NCBI GenBank assembly: GCA_001570385.1
Contig: BBYL01000009.1
Coordinates: forward strand, 1-64,000
Direction: 5' to 3'
Length of the DNA stretch: 64,000 bases
Source: Microtetraspora glauca
GTDB taxonomy: Bacteria; Actinomycetota; Actinomycetes; Streptosporangiales; Streptosporangiaceae
This document shows, in pieces, positions 19,259-48,934 of this stretch. Below the pieces are notes generated by a model that ran no database searches, was not told the origin of the DNA, and saw only the letters and a program-made list of their open reading frames with translations. How positions within the stretch are numbered: the first letter of the stretch is position 1; every line of letters starts with the position of its first letter. A program made the translations under genes and the position numbers.

Positions 19259-19769
19259 GGCGTGGGCGGACGCCGAGCGAAAGCTGGCGCTGGCGGATCC
19301 GGTGGCGTTGTCCGCGATCGAGCTGATCTATCGGGAGGCGCGGCTCCTCGACGACCAGAGGTACCGCGACTGGGACGAGTTGTGGGCCGAAGGAGAGACC
19401 CGCTACGTCGTCCCGATGCGCCGCGAGGTCGTCGACTACGACGCCACCCTGAACTTCATCAACGATGACTCGCCCATGCGACGCCGGCGCGTGGACCGGA
19501 TGACGAGCGGGCACGCCGGCGCCGTGAACGCTGTGGGCCGGACCGTGCGCACCGTTTCGCGATTTGCCGTCGACCGGATCGGCGACCACGAGCTGCGCGT
19601 CACCTCCACCGAGATCGTGGTGGCGTACAAGCAGGGCGACCATCAGGTATGGGCGGCCGAACTGACGCACCACATCCTGAGCGCGGACGATCGCCCGTGC
19701 ATCAGAGCCAAGATCGTGCATCTCGTGGACGCGGAACACACCGTACGGACCTGCGGATTCCTCCTTTAG
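19248..19769 (+). CDS. aromatic ring-hydroxylating dioxygenase, beta subunit
   Basis: A 173-residue NTF2-fold beta subunit (IELIYREARLLDDQRYRDWDEL at the start, DDSPMRRRRVDRM in the middle, which is the hallmark of benzoate/anthranilate-type beta subunits). It overlaps the alpha gene by 11 bp, so the two are translationally coupled. It has a structural role in the alpha3beta3 hexamer and contributes to specificity. Confidence 0.92.
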   Translation: MQAEAWADAERKLALADPVALSAIELIYREARLLDDQRYRDWDELWAEGETRYVVPMRREVVDYDATLNFINDDSPMRRRRVDRMTSGHAGAVNAVGRTVRTVSRFAVDRIGDHELRVTSTEIVVAYKQGDHQVWAAELTHHILSADDRPCIRAKIVHLVDAEHTVRTCGFLL

Positions 19770-19874
19770 CCCGCCGCCCGGGCAGTGTGCCCCCCGGGCG
19801 CGACGGCTCGGCGCGGGCCTGCTGGATCACACTGCGGCGCCCGGCACGCCTGGGTGTCCAGAGAGGTCAGCTTC

Positions 19875-20224
19875 TTGAACCACCGAATCGTCCTCATGTG
19901 CTACGACGACACTTTTCGCTACGGATGGCCGCATGTGGATTTGTTCGTATACGACGAGTACGGCCGGGAGATCAACTGGGTTCACTGGGCGACGGAGGGG
20001 AACGGACCCGGTGCCGCGGACCGCGCCACCGCCGTCGAGGAGCCCTCGATCAGGCGATTGACCGAGTGGGAGCGGGCCGTCAGCGCGAGCGGCGGCGTCT
20101 ACTGGACGGCCGAGGCCGCATGGACGCCCTGGGCGCCGGAGAAAACCGCGCCGCCGTCTTCGCGGGCTCACCCACGCATCGCATCCACGGGTGGTCACGA
20201 CCACTCCACCTCCGAGGAGCGACC

Positions 20225-20228
<4 letters not shown>
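19875..20228 (+). CDS. small protein of unknown function between dioxygenase and catB
   Basis: About 117 residues starting at a TTG with GAGAGG eight bases upstream (alternatives GTG 19854 and ATG 19896). The middle, RIVLMCYDDTFRYGWPHVDLF then VYDEYGREINWVHWATEG, is rich in aromatic and acidic residues and looks like a compact soluble domain; the C-terminal third is low complexity. Its stop overlaps the catB start (ATGA). I do not recognise the family. The tight coupling on one side and the placement inside an otherwise standard pathway make it a likely accessory enzyme or binding protein. Confidence 0.6.
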
Positions 20229-22211
<1,983 letters not shown>

Positions 22212-22247
22212 GACCGACAAAGCCCGCACACGAGAGGAGACCGGCCC

Positions 22248-22532
22248 GTGCTGTTCGCCGTGACGATGGACGTCGCCATCCCGCCCGCGATGGATCCGGG
22301 CGAGAAGGCCACCTTGATCGATCGTGAGAGGAGCTACTCCCGCGAACTCCAGGCGTCCGGCGAGTGGCTGCACATCTGGCGGCGGGTGGGCCGGTACTCC
22401 AACCTGAGCATCTTCGACGTGTCCGGCAACGAGCGGTTGCACCAGATCCTCTGGAACCTGCCACTCTTCCCGTACATGACCATCGAGATCACCCCGCTGG
22501 CGACTCATCCGTCGGACATCCGGGTCGCCTGA
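22248..22532 (+). CDS. catC: muconolactone Delta-isomerase
   Basis: A 94-residue protein with the CatC pattern: LFAVTMDVAIPPAMD at the start, LHIWRRVGRYSNLSIFDV in the middle and LPLFPYMTIEITPLATHPS at the end. It converts muconolactone to 3-oxoadipate enol-lactone. GTG start with GAGAGGAG upstream, 36 bp after catA. It is the last gene of the operon; the enol-lactone hydrolase (catD/pcaD) is not in this window. Confidence 0.95.
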   Translation: MLFAVTMDVAIPPAMDPGEKATLIDRERSYSRELQASGEWLHIWRRVGRYSNLSIFDVSGNERLHQILWNLPLFPYMTIEITPLATHPSDIRVA

Positions 22533-23002
22533 GCCCGGTCGGCACAGCTGCCGAGGAGCCTCTCCAGGGCGGCGGAGTAGGTCAGCTGGTCGGCCTGTAC
22601 GTCGCCTATATGCGGGTCGGCTCCTCCCCGCCGATTGGTAGATCCGCGTCATCCTCGACGAGACAGGCCCGGCGGCGTGCTGCACGAGTACTCACATGCG
22701 GCTTGAACTGCATGGATGAGGCTTTCGGCAGGCGCATGGCTGCCAGCCTGCCGCTCTCGCACTCCACCGGAGCCTGTACTCCCATCACGGCGACTGATCA
22801 TTTCCCGTGCCAGGTGTGTGCCTTCGCCGTCTCCTCGCTCAGCCCGATAGTGCGTCTTCTGCGGAGGGCTCGAACGTCGTGGCCGTCGACGATGCCGCGC
22901 CCTTGCGCATCGATGTTCCCGCCTCTAAAGTTCCCGAATACTCGTTATTCGGGAGTCTCCGCGTGTGCCGCGGCGGTGCCCGAATCAGGTAGGAGGTGCG
23001 GC
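22533..23002. other. 470-bp interval after catC
   Basis: No convincing gene. Short frames on both strands lack ribosome sites and family features. The end of the interval holds a 9-bp inverted repeat (listed separately) and a good AGGAGG ribosome site for the next gene. Confidence 0.5.
22932..22954. promoter_or_regulatory. inverted repeat, probable operator upstream of the YkvI-like gene
   Basis: TCCCGAATA-CTCGT-TATTCGGGA forms a perfect 9-bp inverted repeat with a 5-bp centre, 49 bp before the transporter start. It is moderately AT-rich in GC-rich surroundings. It may be the binding site of the TetR protein encoded at 24621, or a short hairpin. Confidence 0.5.
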
Positions 23003-24190
23003 ATGGCGACTTCATCGTCCAGTCCAAACGATGCTGGCCGGGCGGGTGCCGGCCTGCGCGGGGTGCTGGTCCCGGCGCTCATGTTTCAGGCGGTGGCCAT
23101 CGGGGGCGCCTACGCGACGGGCCGGGAGATCATCGAGTTCGGCGCGGGTCACGGAGCGTTGGGCTGGGCCGCCGGCCTGGCGATGGCGATCACCGGGTCC
23201 CTGCTCTCATACCTCGTTTACGAGATGGCTCGCCGCCACCGGCTGTTCGACTACCGGAGTCTGCTCCGCCACCTCATCAACAAGCTCTACTGGCTCTTCG
23301 ACGCGGTCTACATCCCGCTGGCGATCGCAATCATCGCGGTGCTGGCCTCGGCCACCGGCAACATCCTCAAGGACACCCTGGGGCTCAACTACTGGGCCGG
23401 TGTCGCGGTCATCATCGTGGTCACCGGGTTCGTGACCTTTCGGGGGACCGAGGTCGTCGAGCGGTTCAACGGCATCGGCACGATCCTGCTGATGGCCGGC
23501 TACATCGTCTTCGCCTTACTCGTCATCCCGTCCCATTGGGAGCGCATCGGGCAGGTCATGTCGGCGGGCGACCACTCGCTCCGGCCCGGCGCGACGTTCT
23601 GGGACGCGGCGCTCCTGGGCATGACCTACGTGGGCATGGGCTTCGTCGTCTTCCCGTCCACCCTCATGACGGTCCGCCACCTGCGCTCGCGCCGCGACGC
23701 CGCCAAGGCCGCGGCGCTCACCGGCGGCCTGTACGTCGTGCCGTGGTTCCTGACCTACGCCGCCCTCATGGGCTTCTACCCGGACCCGAAGATCTTCGAC
23801 GCCCCGGTCCCGTGGCTCAAGATGCTCGAGGGCAAGGGGACCTGGGTGGTCGTCGTGTACGGACTTCTCGTCGGCTGGACTCTCGTCGCGACGGCGGTCG
23901 GTCTGATCCAGGCGATCGTGCTGCGTGTCGACCAGAACCTGGTGGACGCCGGTCGCCCCGTGATGACGTCCCGGGTCCGCGTCGGCATCACCCTGGCGGT
24001 GCTCCTGCTCGGAGCTGCCCTCGCCCAGTTCGGGATCATCGACCTGATCGCTGTCGGCTACCTTGTCGGGGCCGTCGCGCTCATCCTGGTGTTCGGGGTG
24101 CCGCTCATCGCCCGCGGCGCCAAGCTCTTCCTGCCCCGCAGCGACGTCCCGGTGGTGACCCAGGGGCAGGAACCGGCGGCGGAGTCATGA
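23003..24190 (+). CDS. YkvI-family membrane transporter (APC/LeuT-like)
   Basis: A 395-residue protein with about 10 to 11 hydrophobic helices. The first helix contains AVAIGGAYATGREIIEFG, the signature of the YkvI family, whose members are distant relatives of LeuT-fold amino-acid symporters with unknown substrates. AGGAGG precedes the ATG. Its stop overlaps the start of the thioesterase (ATGA). As first gene of a unit with an acyl-CoA ligase and carboxylase, it probably imports or exports the small acid or amino compound handled there. Confidence 0.8.
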   Translation: MATSSSSPNDAGRAGAGLRGVLVPALMFQAVAIGGAYATGREIIEFGAGHGALGWAAGLAMAITGSLLSYLVYEMARRHRLFDYRSLLRHLINKLYWLFDAVYIPLAIAIIAVLASATGNILKDTLGLNYWAGVAVIIVVTGFVTFRGTEVVERFNGIGTILLMAGYIVFALLVIPSHWERIGQVMSAGDHSLRPGATFWDAALLGMTYVGMGFVVFPSTLMTVRHLRSRRDAAKAAALTGGLYVVPWFLTYAALMGFYPDPKIFDAPVPWLKMLEGKGTWVVVVYGLLVGWTLVATAVGLIQAIVLRVDQNLVDAGRPVMTSRVRVGITLAVLLLGAALAQFGIIDLIAVGYLVGAVALILVFGVPLIARGAKLFLPRSDVPVVTQGQEPAAES

Positions 24191-24582
24191 TGAGCGCTCA
24201 CCCGGCCTGGCGCACGACGTTCCACCTCCGCTTCCGGGACTTCGACTACCTGGGCCACATGACCGCGACGTCCTACCTCGCGTTCTTCGAGGAGGCGCGG
24301 GTCGCGTGGCTCACCGAGGGCACCGGCGCCCGGCAGCCCGCGTACGTCGTGGCCAGGCAGGAAATCGACTTCGAGCGAGAGGTGCTCCCAGGCGACGGAC
24401 CGCTCACGCTGACGATCGAGCCGATCGGCCGCGGCGCGCGCCGGGTCGACGTACGCGAGGAACTGCGCGGAGCGGACGGGACGCTGAGGGCGCGCTCCAC
24501 GGCGACGCTCGTCATGTGGGACCGCGAGGCCCGCCGTCCCCGGGCGGTTTCCGATGCGGAGAGCCGACTGTTCGGTGGGTAG
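24187..24582 (+). CDS. hotdog-fold acyl-CoA thioesterase
   Basis: A 131-residue 4-hydroxybenzoyl-CoA-thioesterase-type protein. The motif RFRDFDYLGHMTATSYLAFFEEAR contains the catalytic-region Asp (FRDFD) and the long helix typical of this hotdog family. It hydrolyses an acyl-CoA to the free acid and CoA. It overlaps the transporter stop, and TetR follows 38 bp later. In a pathway that begins with a ligase it could recycle CoA or release a final product. Confidence 0.85.
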   Translation: MMSAHPAWRTTFHLRFRDFDYLGHMTATSYLAFFEEARVAWLTEGTGARQPAYVVARQEIDFEREVLPGDGPLTLTIEPIGRGARRVDVREELRGADGTLRARSTATLVMWDREARRPRAVSDAESRLFGG

Positions 24583-24620
24583 GTTCGCGCGAGGAATCAA
24601 CCCGTGATCGAGAGGATGAC

Positions 24621-25250
24621 ATGGCACCGGAGAGCACGTCCGACGTCGACATGAAGGCGGAGATCCTCGCGGCCGCCGCCGAACTGTTCCAGCGTGACGG
24701 CTACAGCAGGACCAAGGTCGCCGCCATCGCCCGCGCGGTGGGGATCACCCCGCCCACGCTCTACTGGCATTTCGAGTCCAAGGAGGACATCCTCTTCGAG
24801 TTCCTGCGCACCAGCCTCCAGGAATTCCTGAACCGCATCGAGGCCGCCATCGCGGGGCTCACCGATCCGGTCGAGACGCTGCGGGCTTTCGCCGTCGCGC
24901 ACACCCGTGCCCAGCTGTCCCAGCTTGAGCAGGCGCAGACGTTCCTGTCGATGACCTACTCGCGGACGCAACTGGCGTCCTCGCTGCCGAAGGAGCGATA
25001 CGAGCTCATCCGGGAGCTGCACCGACGCCACCTGGACAGCGCGCGCGACATCCTGCGGAAGGGCGCCGAGCAGGGGGTGTTCGACGTACCCGACCTCAAC
25101 GCCACCGCCTTCGCGATCCTCAACATCTGCGAGTACAGCGCTCTGTGGTTCCAGCCCGGAGGGCCCCTCACCGTCGAACAGGTCGCCGAGATGAACGGCG
25201 AGTTCGCGCTCCGCATCGCCGCGTCCCCGCACGAACCCAGGAAGGAATGA
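24621..25250 (+). CDS. TetR-family regulator
   Basis: A 209-residue TetR protein: helix-turn-helix in residues 8-58 (MKAEILAAAAELFQRDGYSR, ITPPTLYWHFESKEDI) and a helical ligand domain of the TetR_C type found beside fatty-acid and acyl-CoA genes. GAGAGGA precedes the ATG. The acyl-CoA ligase starts only 4 bp after its stop, so regulator and pathway are co-transcribed. An acyl-CoA ester is the likely inducer (inference). Confidence 0.88.
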   Translation: MAPESTSDVDMKAEILAAAAELFQRDGYSRTKVAAIARAVGITPPTLYWHFESKEDILFEFLRTSLQEFLNRIEAAIAGLTDPVETLRAFAVAHTRAQLSQLEQAQTFLSMTYSRTQLASSLPKERYELIRELHRRHLDSARDILRKGAEQGVFDVPDLNATAFAILNICEYSALWFQPGGPLTVEQVAEMNGEFALRIAASPHEPRKE

Positions 25251-25254
25251 CGGC

Positions 25255-26826
25255 ATGATCACAGGTCGACTCCTCGACGGAGTGGCGCTCGGTCGTACCG
25301 GGCCGCTCGCCGACCTCGAAGCCGCCCAGAGGCGGTGGCCGGACCAGCCGCTGCTGCGGTGGGCCGAGGGTGAGTGGACCGTTTCCCGGTTCGCATCCGC
25401 TGTCCGTTCTGCCGCCGCCGAACTCCACGACCTGGGGGTGCGGCCCGGTGAACGGGTCGCGATCATGGCCGCCAACAGCGCTCGGATGCTCGCGGCGCAG
25501 TTCGCCGTGTGGGCTTCGGGCGCGGTGGAGGTCGCCGTCAACAGTGAGTCGCGGGGCTGGTTCCTGCAGCACGTCCTCACTGACAGCGAGCCCAGCGTCG
25601 TCGTGGCGGACGCACGCTTCCACGAACTGCTGACCGGCTGCGTCGCCCCGGAGCGGATCGTCGACCTCGCGAGCGTGCGCATCGACCGGGACCACGAGGC
25701 CGACGCGGAGGGCGGGCCGGTCCCGGCGCCGGGAGATCTGGCCTCACTGCTCTACACGTCCGGGACCACCGGGCCGTCCAAGGGGGTGATGCTTCCGCAC
25801 GGCTACTTCTCCAACTTCGGTGCCGTCCTATCGAGGGTGCTCGACGTGGGGCCTGGTGACACCGGCTTCTTCACGATGCCGTTCTTCCACGTGGACGCCC
25901 ACATCGCCCTTCCGTTGTGCCTGCAAACCGGCTCCACGCTCGCCTTCGCCCCCCGGTTCAGCGTCAGCAGCTTCTGGGAGGACGCCGATCGGTTCGGTGC
26001 CACCTGGTTCGGTGCCGTCGGCTCCATGTTGTCCGCGCTCATCACGCGGGGGCGGCCGCCGGCGCCGGTCCTGCGGCGCATCCGGACGATCCTCGCCGCA
26101 CCCATCCCCGACGAGGCCTACGAGTTCTTCGAGGACGAACTCGGGGTTCCGCTCCTGCAGATGTACGGCCAGACCGAGGCCAACGGCCCTCTCTACTCCA
26201 CCGCCGAGCGCCGGCGGCGCGGGGCCGTGGGCTGGAGTTGTGCCGGCTTCGACGTCCGGGTCGCGGCCCCGGACGGGACCGAGGCCGGGGCCGGAGAACT
26301 CGGGGAGCTCCAGACGCGGCCCCGGCATCCGCACATGCTCACCCTCGGGTACTGGCGGCGCCCAGAGGCCACCGCCGAGGCATTTCGCGACCTGTGGTTC
26401 CACACCGGGGATCTGGTGATGCAGGACACCGACGGGTTCATCTGGTACGGCGGCCGCCTGACCGACAGCCTGCGCAAACGCGGCGAGAACATCTCCGCGT
26501 TCGATCTTGAGCACGTGGTCCGCCGCGCACCCGGCGTCCGCGAGTGCGCGGCGCTCGCCGTCCGTGACGAACTCGGCGGCGAGGACGACATCAAGCTGGT
26601 GCTGGTGCTCGACGATGACGCGCCCTTCGATCCCGTGTCCTTCCGCGACCACTGCACACGATCACTACCGCGCTTCGCGGTGCCGAGGTACGTCGAGATC
26701 GTCGTGGAATCGGCTCTCGTCCGGGGACCGGGCACCGGTGCGATCCAGAAGCATCTCCTTCCGGCGGGGATCACCGCCGACACGATCGACCTCATGGAAG
26801 CGGCCGCACCGGCGGCTGCGGACTGA
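25255..26826 (+). CDS. AMP-forming acyl-CoA ligase
   Basis: A 523-residue adenylate-forming enzyme. The ATP loop LLYTSGTTGPSKG is at 165-177, the YGQTEANG motif follows the middle, FHTGDLV contains the ribose-binding Asp, and the late GTGAIQKHLL carries the catalytic Lys499. The overall style resembles CaiC/crotonobetaine-CoA ligase-like members. It activates a carboxylic acid to its CoA thioester, the first committed step of this unit. It lies 4 bp after TetR and 49 bp before the saccharopine-dehydrogenase-like gene. Confidence 0.9.
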   Translation: MITGRLLDGVALGRTGPLADLEAAQRRWPDQPLLRWAEGEWTVSRFASAVRSAAAELHDLGVRPGERVAIMAANSARMLAAQFAVWASGAVEVAVNSESRGWFLQHVLTDSEPSVVVADARFHELLTGCVAPERIVDLASVRIDRDHEADAEGGPVPAPGDLASLLYTSGTTGPSKGVMLPHGYFSNFGAVLSRVLDVGPGDTGFFTMPFFHVDAHIALPLCLQTGSTLAFAPRFSVSSFWEDADRFGATWFGAVGSMLSALITRGRPPAPVLRRIRTILAAPIPDEAYEFFEDELGVPLLQMYGQTEANGPLYSTAERRRRGAVGWSCAGFDVRVAAPDGTEAGAGELGELQTRPRHPHMLTLGYWRRPEATAEAFRDLWFHTGDLVMQDTDGFIWYGGRLTDSLRKRGENISAFDLEHVVRRAPGVRECAALAVRDELGGEDDIKLVLVLDDDAPFDPVSFRDHCTRSLPRFAVPRYVEIVVESALVRGPGTGAIQKHLLPAGITADTIDLMEAAAPAAAD

Positions 26827-26875
26827 CCTCAGCGTCCGAATCGCAAACGTGGACCCCAACCCGAAAGGAAAGAAC

Positions 26876-28045
26876 ATGAACGTCCTGGTCATCGGGGGAG
26901 CCGGACGGGTGGGAAGGCGCGTCGTGGCCGAACTCGCCGAACACTCCGACCACGACATCACTATCGCCGACCGCGTGGCGCCCGGCGGTGCGACGGCCGC
27001 CTTCGTCGAGCTGGACCTTGCCGACGACGTCGCCCTGGCCCGCGCCCTCGCCGACGCCGACGCGGTGGTCAACACGGCGGGACCGTTCGACCTGTGGGGC
27101 GCCAAGGTGCTCGACGCCGCCATCGAGCACGGCGTCGACTACATCGACGTTTGCGACGACCCGGCCGCGACCCAGGAGCTCATGAAGCGCGACCCCGCCG
27201 CTCGCGCATTCGGTGTCCGCGCCGTCGTGGGGCTCGGCGTGAGCCCGGGTCTCACCAACTATCTCGGTGTGATCGCCGCGCGCGACCTCGATGAGGTCGA
27301 CAGCGTCGCCACCTTCTGGGGAGACTCCCGCGAAGGCATGGACCTGGACGAGGCCACCCGGCACGCCGACGCCCTCGCCGCGTCGTTCACCGCCGGCCGG
27401 GCCGCCTACACCCACCTCATCCTGCAGACCGCGGCCGAGGTGCCGGTCTGGCGCAACGGTGAACCGGTCAACGAGCGGGCCTGGAGAACGGCCTACCGGG
27501 TGCGTACCTCCAACGGCGAGACCGGCGTCTACCGCGTGATCGGCCACCCCGAGCCCGTCACCATGCCCCAGGCGATCACGCTCCGCAACTGCGTTAACAT
27601 CGGCACTGTCAACGTCGGGACCGACCGGCTCATGCTGCCGGTCCTCGATCGGGTCGCCGCCGGTGAGCTGACGCCCGAGGAGGCCATCGCCGACATCGCC
27701 GCCCGGCTCACCGAGCACCCCGAGGACCTGGTGTCCGAATCCCGAGGCCCGCGCCTGCCCAGGCTGATCGGAGCGGTGGCCACCGGCACCGCCGGCGGCA
27801 GGGAACAGGGGATCATCGTCTTCCCCGGTGGACCGGTCGACGGCTCGATGAGCCTGGAGACGGCACGCCCGGCGGTCGTGGGCGTCCTGCGTATCGAGCA
27901 GGCCCCCGTCGGCGTCCACGCGCCGGAGGGCGCCTTCGACGCCGACGCCTTCCTCGAGCACTACGCCGCGATCTACTGGGACGGCGGCGAGACCTTCCTC
28001 AAGGATGTCGCCGGCCCCACGGCCCTCACCGTCGAGGAGAGCTGA
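26876..28045 (+). CDS. saccharopine dehydrogenase-like oxidoreductase (first copy)
   Basis: A 389-residue protein. The Rossmann motif GGAGRVG is at residues 7-13, followed by a NAD(P)-binding domain with VNTAGPFDLWGAKVL and HGVDYIDVCDDPAATQ, the pattern of the saccharopine dehydrogenase NADP-binding family. The second half (GLGVSPGLTNYLGV, GHPEPVTMPQAITL, GVHAPEGAFDAD) matches the paralogue at 34950. True saccharopine dehydrogenases act on lysine; this branch is uncharacterised to my knowledge. It is in the middle of an operon with a ligase and a biotin carboxylase, so it probably reduces or oxidises the same carbon skeleton. Confidence 0.82.
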   Translation: MNVLVIGGAGRVGRRVVAELAEHSDHDITIADRVAPGGATAAFVELDLADDVALARALADADAVVNTAGPFDLWGAKVLDAAIEHGVDYIDVCDDPAATQELMKRDPAARAFGVRAVVGLGVSPGLTNYLGVIAARDLDEVDSVATFWGDSREGMDLDEATRHADALAASFTAGRAAYTHLILQTAAEVPVWRNGEPVNERAWRTAYRVRTSNGETGVYRVIGHPEPVTMPQAITLRNCVNIGTVNVGTDRLMLPVLDRVAAGELTPEEAIADIAARLTEHPEDLVSESRGPRLPRLIGAVATGTAGGREQGIIVFPGGPVDGSMSLETARPAVVGVLRIEQAPVGVHAPEGAFDADAFLEHYAAIYWDGGETFLKDVAGPTALTVEES

Positions 28046-28046
28046 G

Positions 28047-29615
28047 ATGGCCTTCACCTGGGAATCAGCCCTGGAGGAACTGCGGCGGCGCCACGAGGAG
28101 GCGCGCCGACTCGGCGGCGCCGAACGCGTCGAACGCCAGCACGCCCAGGGCCGCCAGACCATCCGGGAACGCATCGGCCAGATAGCCGACGACTTCACCG
28201 AGGTCGGCGAGTTCGCCACGTTCCCGATCCGTGACGCGGCCGGAACGGAAGTCGGCACGCTGCCGTCGAGCTACGTCTGCGGCCTCGGGACGGTCGACGG
28301 GCGCCAGGTCGCCATCGGCGGCGAGGACTTCACCGTCCGCGCCGGGGCGCCGCAGACCTACCTCGACCGGTGGAAGGGCGGCATGGGCGGCTTCGTGGAG
28401 GACCTCGCCCACGAGTACCGCATCCCCCTCATCCTGTTCATGGAGGGCATCGGCGGTGACGTCTCCGCTCAGGACGAGAAGGGCCACTCCTACCTCGTCA
28501 GCTCGATGAGCTGGCGGCGCAGCTTCGAGCTGATGTCGCAGGTGCCGGTCCTGGTCGCCGTGCTCGGCTCGGCCGCGGGAGGCACCGCGGGGCGCGCGGT
28601 GGTCAGCCACTTCAGCGTGATCAGCAAGGGCAGCGTGCTCTTCGCCGGCGGGCCGCCCGTCGTCCGGCGAGCCCTCGGCCAGACCGTCGACAAGCACGAA
28701 CTCGGCGGCGCCGAGATGCACACGAGCGTCTCCGGGGCCATGGACAACCTGGCCGAGGACGAGGCCGACGCCATCGACCAGCTGCGCCGCGTGCTGTCCT
28801 ACCTTCCGCAGAACGTGTGGGAACTCCCGGCCCGAGGTGACCGGAGCGACCCGGTGGACCGCTCCTGCGACGAGCTTTTGAAGATCATCCCAGAGAACCG
28901 GCGGCGCCCCTACAAGATGCGCGAGGTGATGCGCACCATCGTCGACCAGGACTCGCTCTTTGAGATAGGTCCCGGCTGGGGCCGGGCCGTCATCACCGCC
29001 TTCGCCCGTATCGACGGCATCCCGGTCGGGGTCATCGGCAACAATCCCATGCACCTCGCGGGCGCCCTGGACGGCGCGGCCGCCGAGAAGCAGATCCGCT
29101 TCGTCGATCTGTGCAGCACCTTCCACCTCCCGATCGTCTACCTCGTCGACGTGCCCGGGTTCATGGTCGGCCCCGAGGCCGAGCGCCGCGGGGTTGTACG
29201 CATGGGCATGCGGGCGATCCAGTCGATCATCGAGGCCGAGGTGCCGGTCGTCACCGTCCACGTCCGCAAGGCGTACGGCATGGCGGTCTCGGCGACCTCC
29301 AACCCGGACGCGCTGGGTCTGCGCATCGCCTGGCCCAGCGTCGAGTGGGGCGACATGCCGATCGAAGGAGGCGTGGAAGCCGGCTTTCGCCGCGAGATCG
29401 AGCGGGCCGATGACCCGGAGGTGTTCCGCAGGCAGGCCGAGGAACGCCTGCTCGCCCTCGCCGATCCGTGGAAGACGGTCGAGGCGTTCGGCATGGAGAT
29501 GATGATCGATCCCCGCCAGACCCGGAAGGTCGTCGCCGATTTCCTCAACGCCGGCCTGCACGCGATGCGGTCCCGCGTCGGTCCCAGTGACCGCCGCTGG
29601 AGCATGCGCCCCTGA
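28047..29615 (+). CDS. acyl-CoA carboxylase, carboxyltransferase (beta) subunit
   Basis: A 522-residue biotin-dependent carboxyltransferase. The two crotonase-like halves are visible: GGTAGRAVVSHFSVI with a glycine-rich oxyanion region in the first, and IGNNPMHLAGALDGAAAEKQ with PIVYLVDVPGFMVG in the second. It transfers CO2 from carboxybiotin to an acyl-CoA. ATG 28047 starts one base after the preceding stop, with GAGGAG upstream. The substrate residue pattern does not let me say acetyl, propionyl or methylcrotonyl; the neighbours suggest a special acyl-CoA. Confidence 0.9.
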   Translation: MAFTWESALEELRRRHEEARRLGGAERVERQHAQGRQTIRERIGQIADDFTEVGEFATFPIRDAAGTEVGTLPSSYVCGLGTVDGRQVAIGGEDFTVRAGAPQTYLDRWKGGMGGFVEDLAHEYRIPLILFMEGIGGDVSAQDEKGHSYLVSSMSWRRSFELMSQVPVLVAVLGSAAGGTAGRAVVSHFSVISKGSVLFAGGPPVVRRALGQTVDKHELGGAEMHTSVSGAMDNLAEDEADAIDQLRRVLSYLPQNVWELPARGDRSDPVDRSCDELLKIIPENRRRPYKMREVMRTIVDQDSLFEIGPGWGRAVITAFARIDGIPVGVIGNNPMHLAGALDGAAAEKQIRFVDLCSTFHLPIVYLVDVPGFMVGPEAERRGVVRMGMRAIQSIIEAEVPVVTVHVRKAYGMAVSATSNPDALGLRIAWPSVEWGDMPIEGGVEAGFRREIERADDPEVFRRQAEERLLALADPWKTVEAFGMEMMIDPRQTRKVVADFLNAGLHAMRSRVGPSDRRWSMRP

Positions 29616-29643
29616 ACGCCGCGACTGATTGGAAGCAGTAATC

Positions 29644-29862
29644 ATGCATGAAGTACGCACCGAGCTGACCGCCAGCGTCTGGAAGATCGTCGTCCCGGTC
29701 GGGGCCTCCGTCCGTCAGGGGGACGAGATCGCGATCCTCGAGTCGATGAAGATGGAGATCCCGATCGAGGCGCCGGTGAGCGGAGTCGTCACCGAGTTCC
29801 TCGTCGAGGAGGGCGCGGCCGTCCAGGAGGGCGACCTCCTCGCCCGCATCAGCGCCGACTGA
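29644..29862 (+). CDS. biotin carboxyl carrier protein, stand-alone
   Basis: A 72-residue biotinyl domain. The biotinylation motif ESMKMEIP puts biotin on Lys36, with the usual mirror-image halves (VPVGASVRQGDEI and VEEGAAVQEGDLL). It is a minimal free carrier rather than the fused domain normal in actinobacterial acyl-CoA carboxylase alpha chains. It lies between the carboxyltransferase and biotin carboxylase genes, 18 bp before the latter. Confidence 0.93.
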   Translation: MHEVRTELTASVWKIVVPVGASVRQGDEIAILESMKMEIPIEAPVSGVVTEFLVEEGAAVQEGDLLARISAD

Positions 29863-29880
29863 CCGTTAACAGGAGTTTCG

Positions 29881-31218
29881 ATGTTCAACTCCCTCCTGAT
29901 CGCGAACCGGGGCGAGATCGCCGTACGCGTCATCAGGACCGCGAAGCGGCTCGGCATCCGGACGGTAGCGGTCTTCTCCGACGCCGACGCGAGCGCCCGG
30001 CACGTCGAAGAGGCCGACACGGCCGTCCGGATCGGCCCGGCGCCCGTCGCCCGGTCCTACCTCGACGTGGACGCGATCCTCGCCGCCGCGTCCGCAAGCG
30101 GCGCGGACGCCATCCACCCCGGCTACGGGTTCCTCTCCGAGAACGCCGATTTCGCCCGCCGGGTCCAGGCGGCGGGCCTGGCCTGGATCGGCCCGAGTCC
30201 CGACCGCATCGCCGAGATGGGCGACAAGATCAGGGCCCGTAACCTCATGGCGTCCTATGGCGTGCCCGTCTCGCGCGGCACGTCACAGGCCCTGGCCGAC
30301 GCGGCCGCGGCACGTGCCGAAGCGACGCGCATCGGCTACCCCCTGATGGTGAAGGCCGCCGGCGGTGGAGGTGGGATCGGCATGACGGTCGTCCGGCACG
30401 AGGCGGATCTCGACTCCGCCTTTCAGACCGCCCGGGGCCGGGCCGAGCGGATGTTCGGCTCCGCGGACATCCTGCTGGAGCAGTACATCGAGCCCGCCCG
30501 CCACGTCGAGGTGCAGATCCTCGGCCTGAACGACGGCCGGGTCCTCGTGCTCGGCGAACGCGACTGCTCGATGCAGCGCCGGTTCCAGAAGGTCATCGAG
30601 GAGACACCCTGCCGGGGCATCTCCGACGACCTGAGGGAACGGATGCTGGCCGCCAGCCGTCGCGCGGGGGAGAGCCTCGGCTACCGCGGGGCCGGCACGC
30701 TCGAATACCTCGTCGACCCGCGGACCGAGCAGTTCGTCTTCCTTGAGATGAACACCCGGCTGCAGGTCGAGCACCCGGTCACCGAACTCGTCACCGGGAT
30801 GGACCTCGTCGAGGCCCAGTTGCTCGTGGCCGCCCACGAAGACGGCGAACTCGCGGAACCCGCTCGCGAGAACCATGCGATCGAGCTCAGGATCTACGCC
30901 GAGGACCCCGTCAGGATGCTGCCCTCACCTGGGCGCCTCGAACAATGGAAGGAACCCGTCGGCGAGCACATCCGCATCGACTCCGGCTATCGCGCCGGTG
31001 ACGAGGTGAGTCCCTACTATGACCCCCTCCTGGCCAAGCTGTGCACGGTCGCGGCGAGCAGGGCAGCAGCGATCAAGCGCGCCCGGCAAGCCGTCGGCGA
31101 ATTCTCGGTCACAGGGGTGAAGACCAACCTGCCGCTACTGCATCGTGTACTCGAGGATGATGCCTTCATGAGAGGAGACTTCGACACGCGGACCCTGGCG
31201 CGCATCGCGGAAGGGTGA
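29881..31218 (+). CDS. biotin carboxylase subunit
   Basis: A 445-residue AccC-type ATP-grasp enzyme. The N-terminus LLIANRGEIAVRVIRTAKRLG is the canonical biotin carboxylase start; the glycine-rich ATP loop KAAGGGGGIGM and the catalytic region EMNTRLQVEHPVTE are intact. It carboxylates biotin on the neighbouring carrier with ATP and bicarbonate. AGGAG lies 7 bases before the ATG. It ends without a fused carrier domain, in line with the separate carrier gene upstream. Confidence 0.94.
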   Translation: MFNSLLIANRGEIAVRVIRTAKRLGIRTVAVFSDADASARHVEEADTAVRIGPAPVARSYLDVDAILAAASASGADAIHPGYGFLSENADFARRVQAAGLAWIGPSPDRIAEMGDKIRARNLMASYGVPVSRGTSQALADAAAARAEATRIGYPLMVKAAGGGGGIGMTVVRHEADLDSAFQTARGRAERMFGSADILLEQYIEPARHVEVQILGLNDGRVLVLGERDCSMQRRFQKVIEETPCRGISDDLRERMLAASRRAGESLGYRGAGTLEYLVDPRTEQFVFLEMNTRLQVEHPVTELVTGMDLVEAQLLVAAHEDGELAEPARENHAIELRIYAEDPVRMLPSPGRLEQWKEPVGEHIRIDSGYRAGDEVSPYYDPLLAKLCTVAASRAAAIKRARQAVGEFSVTGVKTNLPLLHRVLEDDAFMRGDFDTRTLARIAEG

Positions 31219-31278: not shown

Positions 31279-32015
31279 GGCCAGTCGGTCTCATCCGGGT
31301 ACATGAGCGCTTCCTCGATCTGCGCGCGTATGGCGGTCAGCGGGCTGCGCAGGTCGTGGGAGGCGTCGGAGGCGAATCGGAGTTGCTGTTCGACCGCCGA
31401 CTGGGCCCGGTCCAGGGTCCGGTTCGCGATCTCGGCGAGGTCTCGGAGCTCGTCTCGGTATTTCGGTACCGGCACCCTGTGGCCGAGGTCGCTCGCGGTG
31501 ATCTGGGCGAGCTTGCCGCTGATGGCGCTCACCGCAGGGTCTTGCCGACGGTGCGGTAGGTGCCCGCCGCGGTCGCGCCGACGAGCAGGAGCCAGCCGAC
31601 GGCGAGCGGGATCAGCAGCCGAGGGCCCACATACCAGGGGACGTCGGCGACGGCCATGTCGAGCCGCCAGACGCCGTTGTCCCGATGGAAGGGATACTCG
31701 ATAATGATCTTGCACCGCCCGGGGAACACCGGCCCGTCACACCGCCTCTCGGTCGCGAAGGCGTCGACGTCGGGCTGCAGGTTCGTCATCGGCGGCTTGC
31801 CCGCCATATCCGGGGTGGCGGCGACAATCGTCCCGACCTGATCGAACAGCTGAACCGCCGTGCCTGACCGGCCCGCCGCCAGGTGGGGGGATACCCCGCC
31901 GCGTACCTGCTTGGCCACGTTCACCGCGTGGGCGACGAGCTGCTTCGTCCGGTACTCGATCGCGGCCTCCCGCACCGCCACCAGGACCAACGCCGCGACG
32001 GCGGTGCAGATCAGC
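31279..32015 (-). pseudogene. truncated, frameshifted sensor histidine kinase
   Basis: The minus strand encodes the end of a membrane segment (ALVLVAVREAAIEYRT), a periplasmic sensor region, a second membrane helix (LLIPLAVGWLLLVGATA), then, one frame away, a HAMP-like linker and the phospho-acceptor domain (QLRFASDASHDLRSPLTAIR with the His). The frame breaks near 31530 between GKTLR and AISGKLAQ, and the gene stops dead at about 31279 before any ATPase domain. The N-terminus is also missing. It is a dead remnant. Confidence 0.75.
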
Positions 32016-32546
32016 TCTACGGGGGTTCCCCGGGGAGGACCCTACTACGGCAGCTCCACCCCATCCCGGACCGATCGGCGGTCGGTGCGCCCAGCCCGCC
32101 CATCCCGGCTGGCCATGAGACGGCAGGCGAGATCCGAGACGGTTCCCATGTTCACTGTGACTCGCTCGACGAAGGAGGCGCCCGACTTTGTCCCAGCGGC
32201 AGCGCCATGAGTACGCCGCAGTCCTTCCTCATGGCCTCCCGGTCGCCATCGGCAAGCCACCCAGGAGTTCCCCACCCTGACAAAGCAGGGCGGGTGCGCA
32301 CCGCCTCCGGACCTGATCCGCCAGGTTCGAGCCGGTGTACTTTTGAGGGATGTAACGACGCCGGTTCCTCGCGTGCTCCTCTCCATCCCGCTACCGGACC
32401 CGCACCATCTGGCAGTACTGGCACGTCCCGGCTTTGTCAGGACTGCTCCCACCCTCCGACCCGGATCAGGTGGCCCCCAGCTCCAACTCCCTGCTACGAC
32501 AGGGCAGGCGGCGAAGGTCTTTCACCTCCACTCGAATCACAGCGCC
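32016..32546. other. 531-bp interval without a recognised gene
   Basis: Short frames exist on both strands but none has a ribosome site, family pattern or stable codon bias. Given the broken kinase beside it, this is probably more decayed sequence. Confidence 0.4.
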
Positions 32547-33215
32547 TCAGGGCGCAGACCGTTCGACGGCACCGGAACTCGTGGTTGCGTGTCCCGGAGC
32601 AGCGTGCAGGCTGCTGGTGGTGAGAGGTTCGGCCAGGGTGGCGAGGTGGGCGGCGAATTGGTCGATCACGGCCAAGGCGGCTGCGGAGTCGTGGTCGGTG
32701 AGCCAGCTGAGGCCGAGGCCGTCGATGACGGTGACGAGCAGGCGGGCGAGTATGGGGACCGGGACCGTCCAGCGGACCCCGGCCTGCTCGGCCCATGCGG
32801 TCAAGGACCGGTTGGCGGCGTGGAGGTAGCCCGCGTACTGCTGCCGTGCCAGGTCGGCCAGCTCCGGGTTGCGTAGGGCGTAGGTCGTGATCTCGTACAG
32901 GACGAGCTGCTTGTCGGGCGGGTCGATGATCGCCTTCCACAGGGCGTGCAGGCCCGCGCGTACGCTCTGCTCGATGTCGGGGAGCGGATGAGTCGGCAGT
33001 TCGGCACGGTCCGCCAGCTCCGCGACGGTGACCGTGATGAGCTCACGCAGCAGCTCGTCCTTGGAGCGGAAACAGTAGTGGAACACGCTCTGCGGCATGC
33101 CCGCCTCGGCGGTGATGGCTCGAGTCGTGGCCTCGGCGATCCCGTCTCGCGCGATCACGCGTAGCGCGGCGTCCAGCAGCATCGCTCGGCGGTCGGCCGC
33201 CGCCAGCCTGGTCAC
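32547..33215 (-). CDS. TetR-family regulator
   Basis: A 222-residue TetR protein: DNA-binding domain ADRRAMLLDAALRVIARDGI followed by GMPQSVFHYCFRSKDELL, then a TetR_C domain with many alanines and a C-terminal tail of low complexity. I prefer GTG 33215, which gives the normal short N-terminal arm, although an ATG at 33269 is in frame. It is divergent from the APC permease and the palindrome GTCAATTGAC lies between them, so it likely represses the permease and the saccharopine-dehydrogenase-like gene. Confidence 0.82.
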   Translation of the reverse strand: MTRLAAADRRAMLLDAALRVIARDGIAEATTRAITAEAGMPQSVFHYCFRSKDELLRELITVTVAELADRAELPTHPLPDIEQSVRAGLHALWKAIIDPPDKQLVLYEITTYALRNPELADLARQQYAGYLHAANRSLTAWAEQAGVRWTVPVPILARLLVTVIDGLGLSWLTDHDSAAALAVIDQFAAHLATLAEPLTTSSLHAAPGHATTSSGAVERSAP

Positions 33216-33277
33216 TTCTCCTCGCCTCGCTCCCTGCAGATCATTCCTAGGCAGGATGCTATCAGGCATCCGACTTG

Positions 33278-33289
33278 GTCAATTGACAT
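33278..33289. promoter_or_regulatory. palindromic operator overlapping a -35 box
   Basis: The perfect 10-bp palindrome GTCAATTGAC (33278-33287) overlaps a consensus -35 TTGACA (33284-33289) directed at the APC permease. No good -10 is visible at 17 bp. The position between divergent genes points to binding by the TetR protein. Confidence 0.5.
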
Positions 33290-33379
33290 ATTCGGGTGAC
33301 CAATACACACTGGCGCTCACTCCCTGCGGTGACCGGCGTCACAGTCCGGCCCCACCGCTGTCCTGAGAGGCGGCCGCGC

Positions 33380-34906
33380 ATGTCGCAACCCGAGTCTCGT
33401 CCGCAGAGCCCATCCCCGACGCTCCGGGCGAACCTGAGCGTGTCGAAGATCGTCTTTTTCGTGATCGCGGCGTCCGCCCCACTCGCCGCGATGATCGGAG
33501 TGCTGCCGCTGTCGTTCGCGCTCGGGGGCGGCGCGGCGACGCCGGTGATGTACGTGGTCACGGGCGTGATCCTGCTGTGCTTCGCCGTCGGATACGCGAC
33601 GATGAGCCGTCACGTCACCAGCAGTGGGGCGCTGTACGCGTACATCCGCGCCGGGCTGGGCCGCCGGTCGGCCGTGGCCGCCGCGCTCATCGCGCTGCTC
33701 TCCTATAACGCGCTGGCCGTGATGCTCGTGGGGGCGTTCGGCTACTTCACGCGGCTGATCCTGCAGATCGGGTTCGGCTTCACCGCGCCGTGGGCGGTGT
33801 ACGCCGGGATCGCCATCGCAGTCGTGGGGGTACTCGGATACCGCAACATCGACATCAGTGCCAAAGTGCTCGGGCTGCTGATGGCCGCCGAACTGTTCAT
33901 CCTGCTCGTGTTCGACCTCTGCGTGGTCGGGAACAAGGGCGTCCAGGCATTTCCGCTCGCCTCGCTGGACGTGTCGACCCTGAGCCAGGGGGCGATCGGG
34001 CTCGGCCTGATGTTCGCGTTCAGTTCGTTCCTGGGCTTCGAGGCCACCGCAGTCTACGGCGAGGAGACCCGTGACCCGCAGCGGACCGTACCCGTCGCGA
34101 CCTACACCGCCGTCGCCGTCGTCGCCGTCTTCTACGGCCTGACGAGCTGGATCTCGGTCGGCGCGATCGGCCCGAACCACGTACGGTCGGCGGCCGAGCA
34201 GGAGCTGGGCAACCTGTTCTTCACGATGGCTGAGCAGTACGCCGGCAAGACCGTGTCCGACGTGATGACGCTGTTTTTCCTGACCAGCCTGCTCGCGTCG
34301 CTGCTGGCCGCGCACAACTCGGTAAACCGCTACATGTTCGCGCTCGGCCGCGAGCGCATCCTGCCGAGCCGGTTCGGCAGCCCGCACCCCAAGCACGGGT
34401 CGCCCGCGCGGGCCAGTCTGGTCCAGACCATGATCAACATCGTCGTTGTGGGCGGCTTCGCCGTCGCCGGACTCGACCCGTACCTCACCCTCTCGGTCAG
34501 CATGTCGGCGCTCGGCACCCTCGGTGCCGTGCTGCTCCAGGCGGCCGCGGCCGCCGCAGTGCTCGGCTTCTTCTGGAACCGGCCCGACCGGCACTGGTGG
34601 AAGACCGGCCTCGCGCCCGTGCTCGCCCTGCTCGGCCTGGCCACCGCAGTCGTGCTGATCGTCGCGAACTACGCCGAGCTGACGGGCGTGCACAGCGTCG
34701 TCATCAACTCGCTGCCGTTGCTGTTCCCGGTGGTGGCCGTCGCGGGCTGGCTGTACGCGCTCTGGCTGCGCCGCGAGCGGCCCGAGGTGTACGCCGTCAT
34801 CGGGCGCTCCGTACCCCGTCGGCCCCCGGAACCGGCCGACATCACCGACGGCGCACCCCGATTCCCGTCGGCGGCGAGCGCGAGTGAGCCGACCCGACCC
34901 GAGTGA
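33380..34906 (+). CDS. APC-family amino-acid/polyamine permease
   Basis: A 508-residue permease with 12 hydrophobic helices. The first helix region VSKIVFFVIAASAPLAAMIG, the loop SSFLGFEATAVYGEETRDPQRTVP (helix 6 region, a hallmark of APC permeases) and HNSVNRYMFALGRERILP are all typical. GAGAGG lies 9 bases before ATG 33380. It imports an amino acid or amine. The saccharopine-dehydrogenase-like gene starts 43 bp later and probably acts on the imported compound. Confidence 0.9.
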   Translation: MSQPESRPQSPSPTLRANLSVSKIVFFVIAASAPLAAMIGVLPLSFALGGGAATPVMYVVTGVILLCFAVGYATMSRHVTSSGALYAYIRAGLGRRSAVAAALIALLSYNALAVMLVGAFGYFTRLILQIGFGFTAPWAVYAGIAIAVVGVLGYRNIDISAKVLGLLMAAELFILLVFDLCVVGNKGVQAFPLASLDVSTLSQGAIGLGLMFAFSSFLGFEATAVYGEETRDPQRTVPVATYTAVAVVAVFYGLTSWISVGAIGPNHVRSAAEQELGNLFFTMAEQYAGKTVSDVMTLFFLTSLLASLLAAHNSVNRYMFALGRERILPSRFGSPHPKHGSPARASLVQTMINIVVVGGFAVAGLDPYLTLSVSMSALGTLGAVLLQAAAAAAVLGFFWNRPDRHWWKTGLAPVLALLGLATAVVLIVANYAELTGVHSVVINSLPLLFPVVAVAGWLYALWLRRERPEVYAVIGRSVPRRPPEPADITDGAPRFPSAASASEPTRPE

Positions 34907-34949
34907 CCTCGTCCCGACCGTCACACTCATCCTCGGCCAAGGAGCAACC

Positions 34950-36163: not shown

Positions 36164-36655
36164 GCGCCGCAATTTGGGCAAGTCTGACCCGCTGGACGCC
36201 TACGCCGCAGCCGACGCCATGCTGGCCGGCCGAGCGCGCGCACTGCCCAAGGGCGGCGACGGGATCGCCGAGTCGATCCGGGCCGTGCACCTGGCCCGCT
36301 CAGGCGCGATCAAGGCCCGCACCGCCTGCATAACGAGCTGCGCAGCCTGCTGGTCACCGCACCCACCGAACTGCGCGAGCGGATGGCCGGCACGTCAGCC
36401 CAAGCGCTGGCCGCGGCCTGCGCGCGGCTGCGCCCGGCCGCAGAACTCGCCGATCCCATCCAGGGCACCAAGCTTGCCCTGCGCAGCCTGGCCCACCCGC
36501 TACCAGGCCCTGACCGCCGAGATCGAAGATCTCGATGCCCACCTGGCGGCCCTGGTCGCTCAGGCCCGCCCCGAGCTTTTGGCCGTGCACGGAGTCGGGC
36601 CCGAGACCGCTGCCCAGCTACTGATCACCTGCGGCGACAACCCCGACCGGCTCCC
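36164..36655 (+). pseudogene. degraded IS110-family transposase
   Basis: Pieces of an IS110 transposase in order but in changing frames: GKSDPLDAYAAADAMLAGRA, then (shifted) LVTAPTELRERMAGTSAQAL, then (shifted back) YQALTAEIEDLDAHLAALVA and LLAVHGVGPETAAQLLITCG. The N-terminal catalytic aspartate region and the C-terminal part after DNPDRL are absent. At least two frameshifts make it inactive. Confidence 0.8.
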
Positions 36656-41169: not shown

Positions 41170-41615
41170 TCAGTCGCCGCGGTAGACGGCGGGGCGCCGC
41201 TCCATGAAGGACCGGACGCCTTCGAGCACGTCCCGGCCGCGCAGGCAGGCCAGCAGCCCCTCGGTCTCCAGGTCGAGCACCTCTTCCAGGTCCAGCTCCC
41301 AGACCCGCTGCATGGCCTCCTTGATCACGACCAGGCGGGGCAGCGAGTACAGCACCCCGTTGCTCGGGAACAGGCCGCGGTGCACCTCCTTGAAGGCGAA
41401 CGAGGCGGCGTGGCCGGCCAGTCGCAGGTCGCTGGCGATGGCCAGCTCCACGCCGACACCGACCGCGATCCCGTTGACCGCCGAGATGATCACCTTGGGG
41501 TGGCCGATGAAGCGGCGGGTGAGGTCCTGGAGCGCGGCGGTCCGTTCGACCAGGGCCGATCGAAGGCGACCACCAGGGCCGAGCCGGCGCGGCGCACCCG
41601 CAGATCGGTGCTCAT
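41170..41615 (-). pseudogene. enoyl-CoA hydratase with internal deletions
   Basis: A start reading MSTDLRVRRAGSALVVAFDR lies at 41615 in one frame; from about 41550 the sequence continues in another frame as IISAVNGIAVGVGVELAIAS and on to PSNGVLYSLPRLV, then jumps straight to LDLETEGLLACLRGRDVLEG and RRPAVYRGD, skipping the roughly 50 residues normally between. So a crotonase gene has lost its catalytic N-terminal half and part of its C-terminal half. It is joined in frame to the ligase remnant upstream. Confidence 0.7.
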
Positions 41616-41631
41616 CCTGAACGAACGCCTT

Positions 41632-43699: not shown

Positions 43700-43770
43700 C
43701 GTTCCTCTCCTTCTCCTTGAGCTCTTCGAGTTTTCCAGCGGTCTCCACGCGCAGGTCACCGCGTGGCTGC

Positions 43771-44640: not shown

Positions 44641-44672
44641 GCGGTTTCCTTCTCTCGTGGCGGTTGACGTGG

Positions 44673-48104: not shown

Positions 48105-48156
48105 CACTGTTCCTTCCTTCGTTACCGCTGGGGGTGGCCGGTCATGGTCGTCGGGG

Positions 48157-48924: not shown

Positions 48925-48934
48925 GAGGTCACGC

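Follow-up and report, generated by a model that had tools for sequence, protein, structure and literature searches.

The stretch of DNA analysed here (the window) comprises 64,000 nucleotides of Microtetraspora glauca (contig BBYL01000009.1 of assembly GCA_001570385.1, positions 1 to 64,000, forward strand) and carries, on the + strand at 23003-31218, a compact block of eight genes. In order, these encode a permease, a thioesterase, a TetR-family regulator, an AMP-forming acyl-CoA ligase, a saccharopine-dehydrogenase-fold oxidoreductase (SDH1), a carboxyltransferase (CT), a free biotin carboxyl carrier protein (BCCP) and a biotin carboxylase (BC) (Table 1). The intergenic gaps, in gene order, are -4, 38, 4, 49, 1, 28 and 18 bp. 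A preliminary description of this DNA had read the genes as one operon-like unit that imports an acid, makes its CoA ester, carboxylates it and then reduces or oxidises it. All eight genes were confirmed at the coordinates given there; the extent that it assigned to the block ends before a companion cassette at 32547-36137, which consists of genes for a second TetR-family protein (TetR2), an amino-acid permease (APC) and a second SDH-fold enzyme (SDH2).

Table 1. Features of the block and of the companion cassette in the window (part of the Pfam scans were run on a longer open frame than the coding span).
Feature	Position	Strand	Evidence and remarks
Probable TetR operator, palindrome TCCCGAATA-N5-TATTCGGGA	22932-22954	.	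48 bp upstream of the permease start; perfect 9-bp arms
Predicted LeuT-fold (APC superfamily) permease, 395 aa	23003-24190	+	ATG start, AGGAGG upstream
4HBT-type acyl-CoA thioesterase, 131 aa	24187-24582	+	PF13279, 2.9e-12
TetR-family regulator, 209 aa	24621-25250	+	PF00440, 6.5e-18; PF17932
AMP-forming acyl-CoA ligase	25255-26826	+	PF00501, 6.3e-63
SDH1, saccharopine-dehydrogenase-fold oxidoreductase, 389 aa	26876-28045	+	PF03435, 6.4e-16
CT, both crotonase halves in one chain, 522 aa	28047-29615	+	PF01039, 2.8e-96
Free BCCP, 72 aa	29644-29862	+	PF00364, 6.5e-19; biotin-site motif ESMKM
Stand-alone BC, 445 aa	29881-31218	+	PF00289, PF02786, PF02785
TetR2	32547-33215	-	PF00440, 2.7e-13; longest frame starts at 33269, start at 33215 by alignment with Rhodococcus TG-1
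Palindrome GTCAATTGAC between TetR2 and APC	33278-33287	.	Possible operator, weak; chance expectation 0.82 in the window at up to 1 mismatch
APC-family amino-acid permease	33380-34906	+	PF13520, 5e-33; 59% identical to Rhodococcus TG-1 counterpart; longest frame starts at 33296
SDH2, 395 aa	34950-36137	+	PF03435, 2.1e-14; PF16653, 7.2e-9 (417-aa frame, 34884-36137)

By sequence, CT, BCCP and BC form a three-part acyl-CoA carboxylase, with a complete BC, a BCCP that can be biotinylated and a CT of the CoA type. Indeed, the Pfam domains of all three scored above cut-off, the first oxyanion site of CT holds Gly-Gly, and BCCP passed the NF004547 model (85.6 bits, cut-off 75). BC scored nearly equally against a urea-carboxylase model (546.3 bits) and an accC subfamily model (546.7 bits); a urea or guanidine carboxylase was nevertheless ruled out by the CoA-type CT. 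Background on fused and separate carboxylase parts can be found in PMC3199775. Five further clear CoA-type CTs, 31-37% identical to that of the block, are encoded in the M. glauca genome (9.27 Mb, 62 contigs), along with three weaker matches (25-33%). The BC C-terminal domain occurs in this genome at six places, five of them in frames of 681-1851 aa and the block BC alone in a 451-aa frame. The split carboxylase of the preliminary description thus stands, as a free BCCP and a BC frame of unfused length, a layout found at one of the six BC places of its own genome. So does the suggestion there that the enzyme is dedicated and not housekeeping, given the low identity of CT to its paralogues and its lack of the Phe/Asp pocket pair that both paralogues of propionyl-CoA carboxylase (PCC) type possess.

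That pair, also present in S. coelicolor PccB, is replaced by Trp156 and Ser415 in the window, and all ten CTs of the clade described below have Trp/Ser. Taken together, the pocket residues, the low identity to the paralogues and the arrangement of BC ruled out a housekeeping propionyl- or acetyl-CoA carboxylase. According to PMC5187497, exchange of the PccB Asp for Ala lets in longer chains, and every beta subunit known to take acyl groups of four carbons at most has Phe where MccB has Gly161. We mapped this position through PccB, from the spacing of Tyr156/Phe160 against Tyr157/Gly161 of MccB, and not on the MccB sequence itself. A medium-chain carboxylase of the MccB type was rejected as well, as Gly would be expected where ten out of ten CTs have Trp. 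The predicted Trp/Ser pocket thus excludes both the housekeeping and the MccB signatures; since an aromatic residue occupies the site of Phe in the enzymes for up to four carbons, the acyl group may be short. In a comparison with solved structures, the top PCC-type chains gave CT 250-279 bits, a methylcrotonyl-CoA carboxylase 172 and a geranyl-CoA carboxylase 159, scores that favour alpha-carboxylation of a saturated acyl-CoA.

SDH1 is a member of the saccharopine dehydrogenase superfamily, as judged from its PF03435 score (59.3 bits, curated cut-off 25.1) and from a fold match of its model over nearly the whole length; identity to solved saccharopine dehydrogenases is 12-18%. The AlphaFold2 model (pLDDT 95.2, pTM 0.93, 67 sequences) matched carboxyspermidine dehydrogenase (Z 32.4, 336 residues, 3.5 Å), lysine 6-dehydrogenase (Z 30.5, 326 residues, 3.6 Å), homospermidine synthase (Z 25.3) and saccharopine reductase (Z 24.8). 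Among its first 28 structural matches (Z at least 22.3), 26 carry the name of an amine- or imine-acting enzyme, and no function is given for the other two (4ina, 4rl6). The C-terminal domain PF16653 was found in SDH2 (36.6 bits, cut-off 31) and gave no match in SDH1 at E 1e-3, though the fold match spans this region. We aligned 67 of the 88 listed SDH places plus window copies (65 locus rows and two window rows; the Rhodococcus TG-1 record, L039, which comes from a different collection, was left out here and in the other structure alignment). At the end of beta-2, 65 of these 67 sequences have Asp at residue 32 and the other 2 have Glu; an acidic residue at this point of a Rossmann fold is usually a sign of NAD. 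The residue favours an NAD+-dependent SDH1 and hence the oxidising direction. H180, H224 and E226 are invariant in all 67, including the amine-associated homologues. Because SDH1 folds like the dehydrogenases of carboxyspermidine and of the lysine 6-position, the substrate is probably an amino-carboxylate, and the earlier wording that the acid is reduced or oxidised can be narrowed, most likely, to oxidation at a C-N bond. In a tree of SDH sequences SDH1 falls in a clade of five, each beside this carboxylase, on an inner branch of 1.43; SDH2, 35% identical to SDH1, is placed beside SDH genes from Streptomyces, Amycolatopsis and further clusters.

SDH1 is rare. Its best-scoring match elsewhere in 150 genomes of the same family is 38% identical, and at E ≤ 1e-30 nine of 394 genomes of the class, its own included, gave a match, the eight others at 34-38% identity. 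Searches with CT were run at E ≤ 1e-110 or 1e-120; here the genome sets are samples from larger groups and the counts include the own or centre genome. They gave 2 of 394 genomes in the class (the second at 41% identity), 5 of 401 in the family of the Nocardia africana genome, 14 of 249 in that of the A. circi genome and 1 of 299 in the Leucobacter family. Among 72,556 plasmid records, a single one, of 592 kb and from Rhodococcus qingshengii TG-1, had a CT of more than 60% identity. The eight genes all recur there, their order unchanged, plus TetR2-APC-SDH2, at identities of 53-78%, with an extra ligase between BCCP and BC and with transposases around this copy of the block. A motif scan for SDH in an 84,980-species collection (of 333 stretches 165 were confirmed, and the best 80 of them, at 77 loci, were kept) yielded two more SDH1 orthologues, in Leucobacter chinensis (L044), where a phage capsid gene lies near the block, and in N. 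africana (L045); at the other 75 loci identity was at most 38%.

Ten loci, each genome or record counted once, have a CT of at least 66% identity: the window, L039 (the TG-1 record), L044, L045, L160, L161, L162, L163, L164 and L165 (L048 lies on the same A. circi contig as L165 and shares its count). These CTs form one clade with support 100/99 in a tree built without L048, a duplicate, and L179, a partial CT. Ligase (42-61% identical to that of the window), CT, BCCP and BC are clustered in all ten loci found, so that in these the genes do not separate, as the preliminary description requires; chance neighbourhood is ruled out by the recurrence of the set across genera. A related permease is present at seven of the ten and a thioesterase match at eight. 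For SDH as a member of the set the outcome was divided: an SDH1 orthologue (61-65%) lies in the cluster at five loci and an SDH paralogue (40-41%) at two, making an SDH-fold enzyme in seven of ten, but three have none and carry MaoC, SDR and thiolase genes. With one copy among plasmid transposases and another near a phage capsid gene, the operon appears to have spread horizontally among actinobacteria.

A second ligase lies between BCCP and BC in L039 (19818-21368) and L044 (12990-14546), the two being 60% identical, and is missing from this position in the window and in N. africana. A ligase 55% identical to the second ligase of TG-1 was also seen in Nocardia pseudovaccinii (L054, 10031-16560), where it follows an SDH-like gene and precedes hydantoinase/oxoprolinase A and B genes. 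In L. chinensis a single open frame of 906 aa spans the ligase and SDH1; this may reflect loss of a stop codon or a true fusion in this one draft genome and is not necessarily one protein.

The best NCBIfam model for the block ligase was PRK06155, 'ATP-dependent acyl-CoA ligase' (NF004808), at 394.7 bits; this is below the curated cut-off of 722, and an equivalog assignment was dropped. Carnitine/crotonobetaine-CoA ligase CaiC was rejected too (PRK08008, 179.8 bits, curated cut-off 651). The AlphaFold2 model of the permease is moderate (pLDDT 63, three sequences in the alignment) and matched structures of AdiC, AgcS, LeuT, CHT1 and NRAMP, with a best Z of 29.1 over 353 residues, so that by its modelled fold the protein is a LeuT-fold transporter of the APC superfamily; its PF01235 match falls below cut-off. 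Together with the amino-acid permease of the companion cassette, this refines the import of an acid, as first proposed, to that of an amino-carboxylate as the likelier cargo.

The palindrome ahead of the permease gene is probably a TetR site, to which the TetR of the block would bind. The pattern TCCCKAATA-N5-TATTMGGGA was derived from three loci, those of the window, TG-1 and N. africana, and fits each of them without mismatch. An equivalent site lies 11-15 bp upstream of the permease start in TG-1, N. africana and Leucobacter, the last being weak (4 mismatches), and L160 has an operator-like site ahead of SDH1 with 3 mismatches. In the whole 9.27-Mb genome the operator occurs just once at up to 2 mismatches. 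Across 93 other loci (1.70 Mb) no match was obtained at up to 3 mismatches and nine were obtained at 4, and the Leucobacter site therefore rests on its position.

The companion cassette accompanies SDH1 at three of five loci. From residue 19 of the window protein onward, its TetR2 is 56% identical to the TG-1 counterpart. Orthologous intergenic regions do not clearly preserve the GTCAATTGAC palindrome, and a conserved TetR2 operator was dropped as a candidate. Between block and cassette, at ~32042-32559, lies a 518-bp stretch with matches in 72 plasmid records (77-80% identity in eight listed). A group II intron maturase gene adjoined it in two of three contexts viewed, and transposase genes were near in all three. 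No Rfam family reached its gathering score anywhere in the window, and 32000-32620 gave no match up to E = 1; a remnant of a group II intron at 32042-32559 is thus an idea that only the context in RHA1 and pNit suggests. The stretch stops where a 3.56-kb copy of TetR2-APC-SDH2 from Microtetraspora malaysiensis starts (32563-36120, 96.7% DNA identity, sharp ends on both sides), and an IS110-like stretch (~36177-36654, 68% identical) follows the cassette. The cassette is thus flanked by sequence of mobile type. In M. malaysiensis and Rhodococcus sp. 1168, which both carry it, the CTs nearest to that of the block are 35% and 37% identical, so that a close relative of the carboxylase is missing and the cassette occurs without the block.

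Other members of the CT clade have different neighbours. L162-L164 have MaoC, SDR, thiolase and a VOC-enoyl-CoA hydratase protein in place of SDH, along with a related permease (41-45%), ligase and carboxylase (genes called by Pfam for L164 and by homology for L162 and L163). In L160, SDH1 stands in the carboxylase cluster behind a GMC gene and a small gene; the GMC oxidoreductase, the small protein and an aldehyde dehydrogenase are 76%, 57% and 69% identical to those of A. circi, and the locus also has an amino-acid permease and a PucR-type regulator. Such a combination of GMC oxidoreductase and aldehyde dehydrogenase with SDH1, ligase and carboxylase would be expected if the starting compound were the amino alcohol of the same acid. 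The A. circi carboxylase (L048/L165) is accompanied by a MAO-like flavin amine oxidase, an FMO-like gene, a GMC oxidoreductase and an aldehyde dehydrogenase; flavin amine oxidase, GMC (89%) and aldehyde dehydrogenase (83%) are present in L161 too. L047, a locus of the SDH2-type group that was examined in detail, has a P450, an imine-reductase-like protein, an amine oxidase, a DAO and a ligase.

Five loci of Streptomyces, Amycolatopsis and Streptacidiphilus (L046, L047, L049, L051, L055) combine imine-reductase-like genes with a ligase and two or three SDH-like enzymes; P450 and DAO genes each occur in four of the five, with Pfam assignments made mainly on L047. Separately, in L164 (12434-14086; also in L162 and L163) a VOC (Glyoxalase_3) region is fused to enoyl-CoA hydratase in a 550-aa protein that adjoins BC. 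For a candidate methylmalonyl-CoA epimerase domain in this protein, the Glyoxalase_3 score passes its cut-off (30.8 against 25.1 bits) and that of Glyoxalase_4 fails (24.2 against 27). The fusion might serve as an epimerase-hydratase for a carboxylated thioester.

The gene content, the conserved core, a pocket unlike that of PCC, the predicted fold of SDH1 and the common operator are what the locus and its relatives display at the level of sequence and model; substrate class, direction, order of steps, product and regulation we infer from them. We propose, with a probability of about 0.45, that the block is a TetR-controlled, horizontally spread catabolic operon for a carboxylate, most likely one that bears an amino group. 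The LeuT-fold permease would take up the compound and the ligase would form the CoA thioester of the imported acid. SDH1, a probable NAD+-dependent dehydrogenase of the amine type, would oxidise a C-N bond, either in the thioester or in the compound directly preceding it, and so yield an oxo compound, which a host thiolase or similar enzyme could cleave to a short acyl-CoA. CT-BCCP-BC would then carboxylate this at the alpha carbon to an alkylmalonyl-CoA that enters central metabolism, while the thioesterase may regain CoA from dead-end thioesters and the TetR2-APC-SDH2 cassette may feed in a second, related amino compound. A thiolase downstream, at 38971-40188, was considered for the missing step and rejected, since two other thiolases of the genome are as close (59% and 57%) to those of L162-L164 as it is (57-59%). 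The context of amine enzymes fits the proposal, with amine oxidases in A. circi, L161 and L047 and amino-acid permeases in the cassette and L160.

In our reading, the core of these operons provides activation with CoA and carboxylates a short acyl-CoA, and the feeder modules joined to it can be exchanged; these would be oxidative deamination by SDH1 in the window type, alcohol and aldehyde oxidation with SDH in the type of L160 and A. circi, and classical beta-oxidation in the L162 type. The order first proposed, in which SDH acts after the carboxylase, is conjectural; the single ligase-SDH1 frame of Leucobacter suggests that SDH1 works next to the ligase and for this reason favours action on the thioester. 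In a more specific and doubtful version, SDH1 would be a CoA-thioester amine dehydrogenase (for example a beta-aminoacyl-CoA dehydrogenase) acting on the ligase product, so that deamination, not hydration plus dehydrogenation, gives the oxoacyl-CoA, and the private carboxylase takes the short acyl-CoA.

Several observations weigh against the amino-carboxylate proposal. None of the 13 loci with more distant CTs (39-51%) has an SDH match, and the three SDH-less loci with MaoC, SDR and thiolase imply that the substrate of the carboxylase need not hold nitrogen. The 13 distant CTs have Trp (ten), Phe (two) or Thr (one) at the pocket position and L166 (44%) has the full Trp/Ser pair, ruling out the pair as a private mark of the clade. 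NRAMP, NIS and CodB are among the fold matches of the permease, and the LeuT fold thus takes non-amino cargo too. At up to 4 mismatches the operator was not found in L161-L165, the five members of the clade that lack SDH1, so that the site goes with the SDH1-bearing version rather than with the carboxylase itself; L160 has the site and no homologue of the block TetR within its 20 kb. No solved structure related to the L047 DAO came up at 1e-15, and the Leucobacter frame contains an internal ATG with a ribosome-binding-like AAAGGA at the SDH1 start. The SDH homologues were gathered by the motifs DYxDxxDD and xxVxNTxGP, and because of this motif-based scan the invariance of Y89, D91, D94, D95, N66, G69 and P70 arises partly by selection. 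We also know of no trans-acting enoyl reductase among solved structures with which SDH1 could be compared for that function.

One alternative is a nitrogen-free pathway for a short or branched carboxylate, in which SDH1 has drifted to a hydroxyacyl- or enoyl-CoA oxidoreductase that replaces MaoC and SDR. The deep separation of the SDH1 clade is consistent with such drift, as are the three sibling loci in which a similar permease, ligase and carboxylase stand with MaoC, SDR and thiolase. However, SDH1 matches amine and imine enzymes over nearly its whole fold, shares the invariant H180, H224 and E226 with amine-associated homologues, and has amino-acid permeases for company in the cassette and in L160; we regard this alternative as unlikely. 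The carboxylase might, instead, be an end-of-pathway enzyme, an accessory propionyl- or butyryl-CoA carboxylase for whatever feeder genes adjoin it, with no new chemistry. The PCC-type scores of CT, the aromatic residue at the Phe position and the variety of modules next to the same carboxylase would all be explained in this way. The host, however, already has five other clear CoA-type CTs, the clade has Trp/Ser throughout where both PCC-type paralogues have Phe/Asp, and free BCCP and BC stay with CT in ten of ten loci, which makes an accessory role about equally unlikely in our judgement. SDH-fold enzymes such as carboxyspermidine dehydrogenase run in the condensing direction. This property and the known stambomycin route, in which a ligase (SamR0482) works with a non-housekeeping CT (MccB; PMC5187497), could suit a biosynthetic operon for an unusual alkylmalonyl-CoA or an opine-like metabolite of secondary metabolism, but the block CT has Trp where MccB has Gly, no polyketide synthase was found among the scanned selection of window and neighbouring genes, and the neighbours look catabolic and differ between hosts, so that such a function is very improbable.

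Elsewhere in the window, genes for ring-hydroxylating dioxygenase alpha and beta subunits, a CatB-like protein, CatA and a CatC-like protein (17972-22532) form an aromatic ortho-cleavage group that stops ~470 bp upstream of the block; the CatC-like gene has 73% DNA identity to Tsukamurella catC. On the - strand, 41170-42597 joins the C-terminal half of an AMP ligase and then an enoyl-CoA hydratase fragment in one frame and looks decayed or rearranged, and 42746-51579 holds a second aromatic catabolic group with a LigB-type extradiol dioxygenase, SDRs and a tripartite tricarboxylate transporter (TctA).

If the amino-carboxylate proposal is true, it would give a catabolic, CoA-linked role to a large and mostly uncharacterised branch of SDH-fold enzymes in actinobacteria, and link that branch to an acyl-CoA carboxylase with an unusual layout and pocket. 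As the operon is small, seemingly self-regulated and portable (the copy on the 592-kb Rhodococcus plasmid), its substrate should be findable by growth screens, and a three-part carboxylase with an unfamiliar pocket may serve to make unusual malonyl-CoA building blocks. A full-text literature search on the gene set and its chemistry, with preprints and most subscription journals outside its scope, gave, among the papers listed, none that matched by title or start of abstract. The remark in the preliminary description that its author knew no pathway of this composition accordingly agrees with the literature searched, in which the combination appears undescribed, each enzyme being of a known family. 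The operon is thus apparently an undescribed combination of known enzyme families, a variant of the catabolic CoA/carboxylase operon.

The closest comparison for CT is S. coelicolor PccB (1xnv/3ibb), which belongs to the same family (279 bits) and shares the Gly-Gly of the first oxyanion site; the two are, however, 34.5% identical over the aligned stretch, Phe160/Asp422 of PccB correspond to Trp156/Ser415, and BC and BCCP of the block are unfused. The stambomycin pair of MccB and ligase SamR0482 (5inf/5ini) likewise joins a ligase with a non-housekeeping carboxylase beta subunit. MccB pairs with the primary alpha subunit and has Gly161 (PMC5187497), whereas the block encodes its own BC and BCCP, has Trp at this site and includes an SDH. 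Plasmid-borne carboxylase clusters of proteobacteria (Cupriavidus, Variovorax, Sinorhizobium, Diaphorobacter) have CTs 40-51% identical to that of the block, with BC and BCCP either free or BC-fused; they differ in having a CoA-transferase or ligase, a tripartite tricarboxylate or ABC transporter, and MaoC, SDR or thiolase, with no SDH in the four of four examined. SDH1 has its fold in common, over nearly its whole length, with carboxyspermidine dehydrogenase (8h52, 8deb), lysine 6-dehydrogenase (3abi) and saccharopine reductase (1ff9); it is 14-19% identical to these enzymes and differs from them in that its gene stands with those of a CoA ligase and a carboxylase.

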